Of a stretch of 9,111 bases of DNA, positions 7,420-9,111 are shown one piece after another. Numbering within the stretch: the stretch's first letter is position 1; every line of letters starts with the position of its first letter. Source of the DNA: JADFSZ01 sp022560555 [NCBI: PVC group bacterium] (GTDB lineage: Bacteria; GCA-001730085; JADFSZ01); the NCBI GenBank assembly GCA_022560555.1, contig JADFSZ010000060.1, positions 1-9,111 on the forward strand, read 5' to 3'. A program made the position numbers and the translations under genes. The notes under the pieces were generated by a model. The model saw only the letters and a program-made list of their open reading frames with translations. It was not told where the DNA came from and searched no databases.

Positions 7420-7456
7420 GATATTCCTATGGAGAGGAGGTCTAAGAGAAGTATAT

Positions 7457-7500
7457 TGCCCCGGTTAAACAAATAAGGCGAACTAAGTTAGAATTGGCTC
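7457..7500 (+). repeat. Left terminal inverted repeat of IS-A
   Basis: This pairs with the reverse complement of 8556-8597. Two well-conserved blocks stand out. The outer block is TGCCCCGGTTAAACAA against TGCCCCCGGTTAAGCAA. The inner block is TAAGTTAGAATTGGCTC against TAAGTTAGAACTGGCAC. A diverged stretch of 8-11 bp separates them. The inner block also supplies the -10 box and one arm of the hairpin over the orfA ribosome site. Confidence 0.85.
7465..7494 (+). promoter_or_regulatory. Putative IS-A transposase promoter inside the left end
   Basis: TTAAAC (7465-7470) and TAGAAT (7489-7494, five of six -10 bases) are 18 bp apart inside the left inverted repeat. A start site six or seven bases downstream would be near 7501, directly after the left arm of the hairpin described next. 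The -35 match is poor (three of six), so this is tentative. Confidence 0.4.
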
Positions 7501-7523
7501 ATAACCGAAAGGAGCCAATTCTA
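7489..7523 (+). promoter_or_regulatory. RNA hairpin covering the orfA ribosome site
   Basis: A perfect 12-bp stem (TAGAATTGGCTC, 7489-7500, with GAGCCAATTCTA, 7512-7523) closes an 11-base loop. The orfA Shine-Dalgarno AAAGGAG (7508-7514) lies across the loop and right arm, and the first base of the ATG is the last paired base. Transcripts entering from outside the IS would contain both arms and hide the site. A transcript started near 7501 would lack the left arm and be translated. This matches a known strategy by which IS elements block activation by neighbouring transcription. Confidence 0.65.
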
Positions 7524-7810
7524 TGAAACGCAGACAATGGACCAGAAAACAAAAGTTTCAAATCGTTCTTGAGGGTCTCTCTTGCTAAATTGATGTCAGT
7601 AAACTCTGCCAAAAATATCAGATATCTCAAACACAATATTACAAATGGCGAGATCAGTTCCTGCAAACCTGCCATCAAGCCTTTGACGTCAAAAAACAAT
7701 CACAAAAAGAGCAACATTTGGAAACTAAGGTCAAACAACTTAAAAACATCATTGGTGATCTCACTATTGAGTTAAAAACGAGTACGAGTTATGCAACGCC
7801 AACGTTCTGA
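7523..7810 (+). pseudogene. IS3-family orfA (helix-turn-helix transposase subunit) with premature stop
   Basis: OrfA is the DNA-binding regulatory subunit of IS3 transposases. Reading starts MKRRQWTRKQKFQIVLEGLS, typical of this family, but codon 22 (7586-7588) is TAA. The same frame then continues open with the expected homology (IDVSKLCQKYQISQTQYYKW), through a helix-turn-helix and a Gln/Lys/Leu-rich helical segment, to a TGA at 7808-7810. A single C-to-T change (CAA to TAA) explains the break. Read through, it would be 95 residues, normal for orfA. The start is set by AAAGGAG eight bases upstream. The 3' end overlaps orfB by 20 bp. Confidence 0.8.
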
Positions 7811-8573
7811 AGCAACCAGGCAGCGTGACTTAGGGCTCCTTGCTATGATTCAACCCATCAAGGATGATCACCCCCTTTGGGGCTACCGCCGTACCTGGGC
7901 TTATCTGAAATATCGCCTAGGTTACCCTACCGGTAAAAATCGTATCCATCGTGTCATGAAAGAAAACAACCTTCTCGTGACTAAACGACAGCGGATACGT
8001 GCTCGTCGCGGTCCGTTCCGCTCTAAACCTAGAGCCTACCGCCCTAATCATTACTGGGGCATCGATATGACAAAAATCAAAATGTACCCCTGGGGCTGGC
8101 TCTATCTGTGTATTGTCCTAGATTGGTGCACCAAAGAAATCGTTGGTTATTCTCTGAACATCCAATCCAAAACAGATGATTGGCTTTTAGCTCTCGAAAA
8201 TGCTGTTAACAAGCGTTTCCCTCGCGGCATCCGAGACTCTATCAAAGATCAATCGCTCTTTCTCATCTCTGACAACGGTTGTCAGCCAACCAGTCAGAGA
8301 TTTATGATGAACTGTTCCCTTGTTGGTATCAAACAAATCTTTACAACCTGGTGTAACCCCAAAGGCAATTCCGATACAGAACGTGTCATGCGAACCATCA
8401 AAGAAGACTTAGTCTGGACTTATGACTGGGATAATCCCTTTGCCTTCTCTGATGCTCTGAGCAAATGGATCAATGCATACAACAGTTATTATCCCCACCA
8501 ATCCTTGAACAATATGACGCCAAAACAATATTATGAAACTTTTAGCCAAAAACCAGTGCCAGTTCTAACTTAA
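7791..8573 (+). CDS. IS3-family orfB, DDE transposase catalytic subunit
   Basis: The 260-residue protein has an N-terminal HTH_21-like part (DDHPLWGYRRTWAYLKYR) and an rve integrase core. The catalytic triad is complete: D92 in GIDMTK, D161 in SDNGCQPTS and E197 in GNSDTERVMRTIKED. There are 35 residues between the last two, the IS3 spacing, followed by YNSYYPHQSLNNMTPKQYY. The frame is intact and the stop at 8571-8573 lies inside the right inverted repeat. orfB is in the +1 frame relative to orfA, so an ordinary -1 frameshift would not make the fused OrfAB. The ATG at 7791 within the orfA overlap may be used alone, or an indel may have shifted the frame. Confidence 0.9.
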   Translation: MQRQRSEATRQRDLGLLAMIQPIKDDHPLWGYRRTWAYLKYRLGYPTGKNRIHRVMKENNLLVTKRQRIRARRGPFRSKPRAYRPNHYWGIDMTKIKMYPWGWLYLCIVLDWCTKEIVGYSLNIQSKTDDWLLALENAVNKRFPRGIRDSIKDQSLFLISDNGCQPTSQRFMMNCSLVGIKQIFTTWCNPKGNSDTERVMRTIKEDLVWTYDWDNPFAFSDALSKWINAYNSYYPHQSLNNMTPKQYYETFSQKPVPVLT

Positions 8574-8597
8574 AAAACCCTTGCTTAACCGGGGGCA
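8556..8597 (-). repeat. Right terminal inverted repeat of IS-A
   Basis: This is the partner of 7457-7500; its reverse complement starts TGCCCCCGGTTAAGCAAGGG. It contains the orfB stop codon and ends in CA at 8596-8597, followed directly by the truncated orfA of IS-B. Confidence 0.85.
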
Positions 8598-8739
8598 TTA
8601 CACTGCTTCGCCTTCCTTCAAAACCCTGATAGTTTGCTCCTCTGTATGCCTCTTTCTACCCATTCTGGACCTCCTCTTGACCGCTTTTACCATCTTTACG
8701 TTATACTTTCAACTGATCCAGTTTGCGGGGGGAAGGTCA
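8598..8739 (-). mobile_element. 5' remnant of a second IS3-family element (IS-B)
   Basis: Read on the minus strand, the segment begins at 8739 with TGACCTTCCCCCCGCAAACT, an IS3-type terminus starting in TG and rich in C. It continues through a leader with AGGAGGT into the start of an orfA. It stops where IS-A begins. The rest of IS-B is not found on the other side of IS-A: 7338-7456 has no orfA continuation in any minus-strand frame. The 5' boundary at 8739 is inferred from the TG and C-rich pattern, because no second end exists here to pair with it. Confidence 0.7.
8601..8663 (-). pseudogene. Truncated IS3-family orfA of IS-B (first 21 residues)
   Basis: The reading MGRKRHTEEQTIRVLKEGEA is the start of an IS3-family orfA of the IS407-like type, whose members typically begin xKRxTEEQIIRxLKEAEAG. 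The start is firm: AGGAGGT (8675-8669) lies five bases before the ATG. After V21 the frame meets TAA at 8600-8598, right at the IS-A junction, so the helix-turn-helix is lost. It differs from the orfA of IS-A, so the two elements are distinct IS3 members. Confidence 0.75.
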
Positions 8740-8775
8740 AAAAATATCAATGGCTTCCCAGCCCTGAAATAAAAG

Positions 8776-8796
8776 TGGTGGGGAGATCAGGATTCG
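8776..8796 (-). other. Sequence with the geometry of a tRNA 3' end (no complete tRNA)
   Basis: On the minus strand, CGAATCCTGATCTCCCC followed by ACCA reads as the last five bases of a T-loop (CGAAT), a 5-base T-stem arm (CCTGA), a 7-base acceptor arm (TCTCCCC), discriminator A and CCA. The match ends inside the T-loop: the next bases give AC instead of TT, and no TCAGG arm follows, so this is not a functional tRNA. Such 3' ends often mark integrase attachment sites, but at 21 bases chance similarity cannot be excluded. Confidence 0.3.
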
Positions 8797-8868
8797 GTCA
8801 CTCTCGCTCGATTGCATCTCGCTCCAGCAGGCTCCTTCATCCCGAATATGGAACCCAATAAGCCCGTG

Positions 8869-8907
8869 CATGGTTTTCGAGGCCCGTAAGGGCATCGGAA
8901 AACCATG
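8869..8907. repeat. Hairpin of repeat unit 1
   Basis: CATGGTTTTCGAGGCCC (8869-8885) pairs with GGGCATCGGAAAACCATG (8890-8907) around a GTAA loop, with one bulged base on the right arm and one mismatch. A further GTG/CAC pairing outside it adds a second bulged base. No U-run follows, so it is not a standard terminator. Confidence 0.7.
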
Positions 8908-8977
8908 CCACTCGTTTGCTTTATCCTCGCTCTTCGCTCGGTTCAACCTGAGTCTGGAACCCGAAAAGCTCGTGTCA

Positions 8978-9008
8978 GATTTTTGAAGAGCTTTGCTCTT
9001 CGAAAATC
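8978..9008. repeat. Hairpin of repeat unit 2
   Basis: GATTTTTGAAGAGC (8978-8991) pairs with GCTCTTCGAAAATC (8995-9008) around a TTT loop, with a single T-G wobble in 14 pairs. Its position in unit 2 matches that of the first hairpin in unit 1, yet the stem is different. No U-run follows. Confidence 0.75.
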
Positions 9009-9111
9009 CAGGCCGCTCTCTCGGGTCCGTCGCTCCGAAACTTCGGAGTTCCTCCCCTATGTAGGCCAAAAATCTTTCTATAGCATTAACAACTCAAAAA
9101 ATGGGGAGACC

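Follow-up and report, generated by a model that had tools for sequence, protein, structure and literature searches.

The two hairpins near the end of the sequence analysed are probably two copies of a non-autonomous mobile DNA unit of about 72 bases (range about 70-73 nt), in which a bulged hairpin is joined to a conserved tail of about 32 nt. The window, that is the whole stretch of 9,111 nucleotides, is the entire contig C29 of a 1.66-Mb draft genome with a completeness of 91.5%. Comparison of the copies makes it very probable that these units are mobile and have inserted between genes, in one gene and in their own copies. There is an even or slightly better chance that a Y1/RAYT-type enzyme moves them in the form of folded single strands of DNA.

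An earlier note on this DNA had described a tandem array with a shared 33-bp block ahead of hairpins of different sequence. The block is real, as 8836-8868 and 8942-8974 are identical at 26 of 33 bases, while the top value reached by shuffling the bases of 8776-9111 300 times was 22. The array is a pair rather than anything longer, since R1, a covariance model for which 18 units were chosen by hand, sees in the window only two full units and a weak overlapping row on the opposite strand of unit 2. In the orientation of the element, which is the minus strand for both units, a hairpin (GCC...GGC) is followed by the tail ACGAGCTT..GGGTTCCAG....GATGAA. Unit 1 (8836-8908, minus strand) is complete with 73 nt, reads GCA...GATGAA, has its ends defined by comparison with nested copies and scores 85.1 bits (E 2.7e-20); unit 2 (8942-9013, minus strand), also complete, has 72 nt, reads GCC...GTTGAA and scores 79.6 bits (E 8.6e-19), both being training units of R1. 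According to the ssDNA folds and the alignment, the hairpin of unit 1 (8868-8908) carries the variable tip GCCC/GGGC and, within the same interval, a neck CCGAT/CTCG with a T x C mismatch and an extra C. Its conserved tail (8836-8867) has no stable fold of its own (z +0.79). The hairpin of unit 2 (8974-9013) has the tip GAGC/GCTC, by the tip table and the ssDNA folds, and lower arms that are chimeric (GCCTGGATTT versus AAAATCTGAC, 6 of 10 Watson-Crick); the comparison of the blocks places its conserved tail at 8942-8973.

As had been claimed, the two stems differ in sequence and yet each of them folds. Taken alone as ssDNA, hairpin 8869-8907 has z -7.7 on the plus and -6.2 on the minus strand and hairpin 8975-9012 has z -4.7 and -3.9, each being more stable than all of 200 dinucleotide shuffles on both strands. 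An unpaired base on the right arm near the stem base, proposed for both, exists in unit 1 but lies in mid-stem; unit 2 lacks it, with 14 consecutive pairs (one G-T) and zero unpaired bases on the plus strand and one mismatch on the minus strand. The units stand within a longer GAGCGAG-rich segment (8789-9037) that recurs near the end of contig C46 (L002), the two agreeing at about 81% over 131 columns and in shorter pieces; by sequence comparison the part surrounding unit 1 that recurs there, at about 81% identity, is 8789-8916.

In the genome itself blastn gave 14 matches, two of them inside the window, and R1 gave 61 rows at E<=1 and 35 at E<=6e-9. Eighteen of these 35 strong rows match by construction; the 17 outside the training set are on C136, C152, C65, C63, C180, C170, C190, C216, C96, C100 and C47, together with the second row at C21:3294. 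The latter is the other strand of another row, which leaves 34 distinct units at 22 places on 21 contigs, a count that excludes interrupted outer units, recognised only once their inserts are removed. Most places are intergenic as judged by reading frames, and one of the 22 was recognised as lying within a gene. Seven of the 22 are 250 bases or less from a contig end (expected 6.7%, p 4e-4), and more copies than were counted therefore probably exist. A tail of a second type, CACGAGATATTTTGGGTTCCAG...GGGGAG, is present at C166, C170, C180, C190, C152 and C206, and at C206 three contiguous 43-nt units combine three different short hairpins with one kind of tail.

The further copies for which the earlier note had proposed a search are therefore present as 35 strong rows in the own genome, but none is comparable in 40 other genomes, one of which is from the same phylum. 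Across these 40, R1 gave no match of own-genome strength and blastn gave zero matches; the sole other genome from the phylum had no R1 row. The single R1 row elsewhere at E<=0.01 (G024, E 0.0067), in a scan with stricter filters and a limited number of candidates scored per genome, was taken as chance. The exact tail pattern was found in 14 stretches of genome_contigs and one of viral_contigs, collections which may exclude the own and very near genomes. These 15 stretches reached at most 21.8 bits with R1 against 44-88 for the 35 strong own rows, and for this reason they were taken as chance matches to the tail only. Rows matching the pattern with three mismatches were not counted as copies, because a backward-read control gave 33 matches compared with 48.

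Nested copies provide empty and filled versions of the same sites in one genome, which largely fixes the ends of the unit without a second strain. At C152 one outer unit of the second type holds three units of the first type (72, 72 and 70 nt), in its loop, its right arm and, inverted, its tail. Without them the outer unit can be aligned to copies that bear no insert, which it matches at 67 of 71 columns (C190a and C170 each) and 66 of 69 (C180). The inserts at C98, C63 and C21 are 71 nt each and inverted, and the outer tail is continuous after their removal, the outer hairpin of C63 running off the contig. C96 has three levels, with a 71-nt unit within a 72-nt unit within a third. At C96 and C216 removal of the inserts restores the outermost tip imperfectly, and C47 has two tails with the outer hairpin not seen. 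Unit starts and insert edges were set by hand or eye, and, since GAA stands on both sides of the right-arm insert, its edge could lie a few bases away. No clear target duplication was found at the nested sites examined, the 3-base GAA repeat at the right-arm site being a possible one. The two-tailed forms were also considered as full-length ancestral palindromes. This was rejected, since removal of the inverted insert shows nested units in C152, C98, C63, C21 and C96. Read in this way, most of the palindromes of about 100 nt are units inserted inverted in the tail of another unit. Some nested sites recur, a type-2 unit being found in the right arm at no fewer than five places, and part of the nesting may thus be copied composites rather than independent jumps. 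Among the titles and abstract beginnings of the literature searched, in which subscription papers are thinly covered, no self-nesting units of such kind are described.

The copy recognised within a gene is a 72-nt unit at C190:935-1014, in frame (24 residues) and directly after CxxCxxCC. The host protein matches PF03692 (E 1.4e-11), and eight of the 40 other genomes gave a match to it. Seven loci were tried, and the 72-nt stretch is absent from all four alignable homologues that bear CxxCxxCC; among these four the L083 match includes a stop codon. This copy and the self-nesting together support the idea of a transposition substrate, which was one of two alternatives put forward for the hairpins at the outset, the other being a structured RNA.

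The maintenance of the fold was evaluated in an alignment of 33 units (A2), the cut-off unit at C216:11066 and the opposite-strand C21:3294 row being left out of the 35. In the stem of 17 pairs, 82.1% of the cells are paired (68.4 in shuffles), and two-sided changes affect 13 of the 17 pairs (9.0 in shuffles). Two-sided changes amount to 73 cells compared with 21.8 (sd 4.7) in shuffles and 9-19 in slid versions, cells that are not independent events, all units being related copies from a single genome. Of fifteen different tip pairs, nine are fully Watson-Crick over 4 bp; when the partners were re-dealt 20,000 times, the mean was 1.0 and the highest value 6. In the neck, 19 of the 33 units have the T x C mismatch, across 10 different left tips, and the remaining 14 are paired at that position. 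As aligned, the tip is paired but variable in sequence and stands on a neck in which a mismatch is often kept. Pairing is less strict in the lower stem, where 25 of 33 rows fail to pair at 11-41 and 14 at 6-45, and in several copies the arms look drawn from two different subfamilies. The claim that the fold is kept while the sequence changes accordingly holds for the upper stem but only in part for the lower, where some pairs vary uncompensated, as the earlier note had said would count against it. RNAalifold on A2 returned six tip pairs only, fewer than the tested structure of 17, and the number of further standard pair types was unremarkable (65 of 500 shuffles as high).

A covarying stem would also be expected of a structured RNA family, such as a regulatory RNA, a terminator or an mRNA-stabilising hairpin, kept for its fold, and such a family would fit the mostly intergenic places and the observation by eye that, where the neighbours are co-directional, the outer unit mostly points the same way. 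Nevertheless this explanation appears very unlikely. The window has zero Rfam matches at gathering scores, and in 8590-9111 nothing related was found at E<=5, one unrelated family giving E 2 and 10.9 bits against 80. No terminator-like site was seen in 8400-9111, which is weak evidence because just 0.8 is expected there by chance. Moreover, one would expect an RNA to be disturbed by units nested in its loop, arm and tail, and both orientations of the unit are found within C152, C190 and C21. The structured-RNA alternative of the earlier note is in consequence not supported.

The flanks also bear on the preferred reading, that of mobile DNA. Of the 35 rows, 31 have the dinucleotide [A/T][G/C] just before the unit; with repeated sites collapsed by hand, 24 units remain, and 21 of these have it (p 7e-11 for this set, against a background of 0.237). 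In the orientation of the insert, the tip sites in C38 and C152 read GATAAG and several tail sites read TAAG or AAAG, TAAG recurring at several of the nested tip and tail sites. On the opposite strand the flanking dinucleotides are CT, CA, GT and GA. Two of them, CT and CA, are given as cut sites of studied TnpA_REP enzymes (PMC8266576), an overlap between unit flanks and cut sites that is suggestive only.

The window contains an IS3-family element (7452-8604) whose transposase frame (7791-8573) matches NF033516 with 163.5 bits against a cut-off of 160; by eye its ends, near 7452 and 8604, match and its first frame is broken. A similar stretch, by eye an apparent IS3-type remnant on the minus strand, follows both this element (about 8600-8660) and the RAYT gene of C102 (L015, about 1040-1115). 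Short dispersed repeats are often MITEs, and with an IS3-family gene at 7791-8573 the units might be MITEs of a DDE transposase such as that of the adjacent element. There is little likelihood of this, as the unit begins with GCC and finishes with GATGAA or GGGGAG, ends that do not form an inverted repeat, and no clear target duplication is seen at the nested sites examined.

It is unlikely, though less so, that replication errors alone (slippage, template switching, quasipalindrome correction and recombination between copies) produced the units without any dedicated enzyme. The head-to-tail copies, two similar ones in C166 and the three contiguous ones of 43 nt in C206, point to local copying, as do the chimeric arms, the mixed tails and the repeated identical nested sites, and template switching can repair palindromes and thus mimic covariation. 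Such errors would hardly explain, however, why whole units stand inserted at scattered places that are unrelated to each other, an unrelated gene among them, or why their ends recur and a dinucleotide is preferred. In addition, repair would be expected to erase the neck mismatch, which persists in 19 of the 33 rows with 10 tips.

If the units are instead moved by an enzyme, the folded single strand would be recognised and moved in trans by a Y1 HUH (RAYT/TnpA_REP-like) protein, the neck and the tail serving as recognition and guide parts and pairing being the sole requirement on the tip. With a tip that changes and a neck and tail that are conserved, the copies hint at the parts that an enzyme would have to read. 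A hairpin with unpaired bases and a variable centre would likewise suit a folded single-strand recombination site such as the integron attC, an explanation that is extremely improbable here. The copies are nested or solitary and do not bound cassettes, and the stem feet in A2 are mostly GCC/GGC, unlike the core sites of attC, where the hairpin foot is formed by the paired core sites AAC/GTT.

Three Y1 genes are present in the genome, on C102, C27 and C37. The C102 protein is a RAYT (NF047646, 85.5 bits against a cut-off of 80), and the other two fall under that cut-off with 55.9 and 25.3 bits. At its C-terminus the C102 protein weakly matches Bac_DnaA_C (22.4 bits, below the cut-off of 31.5), a domain that TnpA_REP subgroup 2.1.2 is described as having (PMC6006769). 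No unit was found beside the Y1 genes at the three loci with R1 run without filters, the best score being 4.3 bits; the C102 locus ends 54 bases before the gene, at the contig end. On C27 (L016) the RAYT-like gene lies between two copies of another hairpin, GTTACCACCTACGAGGTGGTAAC, at 115-137 and 824-846, and these are its only two sites genome-wide with up to three mismatches allowed. A relationship to the unit was considered for this hairpin, on which the row of 4.3 bits lies, and is unsupported.

Taken together, it seems rather likely that the units work like miniature DNA of the REPIN/RPE type. In common with REPs and REPINs they are short, dispersed and often irregular hairpins with a variable self-complementary part and compensatory changes, such changes being reported for REPIN hairpins too (PMC3116915), and the E. 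coli TnpA_REP is described as requiring an unpaired stem bulge (PMC8266576). The likeness extends to a RAYT gene in the genome and to in-frame insertions, which are on record for those systems (PMC3116915, PMC8266576, PMC6006769). In contrast to them, the units have no GTAG-type tag at the hairpin foot, carry a conserved tail of about 32 nt on one side and nest in one another at internal sites that recur; no copy was found next to a RAYT gene. GTAG stands right before the hairpin in one of 35 units (C170), and also in the interrupted outer unit of C152; the complementary strand reads CTCGT, CTTGT or CCCGT at that position. According to their description, REPIN doublets consist of two inverted REPs around a spacer, whereas most two-tailed forms here are a unit in a unit. 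With no GTAG tag and no copies flanking the RAYT, the statement that the unit is a REPIN fails on two tested features, and the statement that it works like one is supported.

RPEs are likewise dispersed palindromic repeats, reported in frame inside unrelated genes (PMC10969869), of which there is one such case here. They differ in being about 150 bp (PMC10969869), compared with about 72 nt for the unit, and in carrying a CGTC tag (PMC3733652), which the units are without, no such conserved tetranucleotide being visible in A2 by inspection.

Elements of the IS200/IS605 family generally have a hairpin close to one end and insert next to a short sequence with no visible target duplication (in part PMC6006769). 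The units share the hairpin and, with edges set by hand and a loose target, may share the mode of insertion. They differ in having no internal transposase, one hairpin and not two, and a looser dinucleotide preference, and no ends shared with a TnpA-bearing element were found.

Tentatively, and with the odds rather against it, the units might constitute a distinct minimal kind of mobile DNA, in which a hairpin with any paired tip and a fixed unpaired tail moves as folded single-stranded DNA by an enzyme without a GTAG guide. If this were true, their own hairpin tips and tails would be landing sites, giving rise to nested stacks, and the 43-nt units of C206, with three hairpins and one kind of tail, would be the smallest form. 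ARAGORN found zero tRNA in the piece C206:11450-11779 (L063), which ends at the contig end; by eye the three mini-units stand there just after an apparent tRNA-fragment start, GGGCCCTTAG, and a second such start lies downstream.
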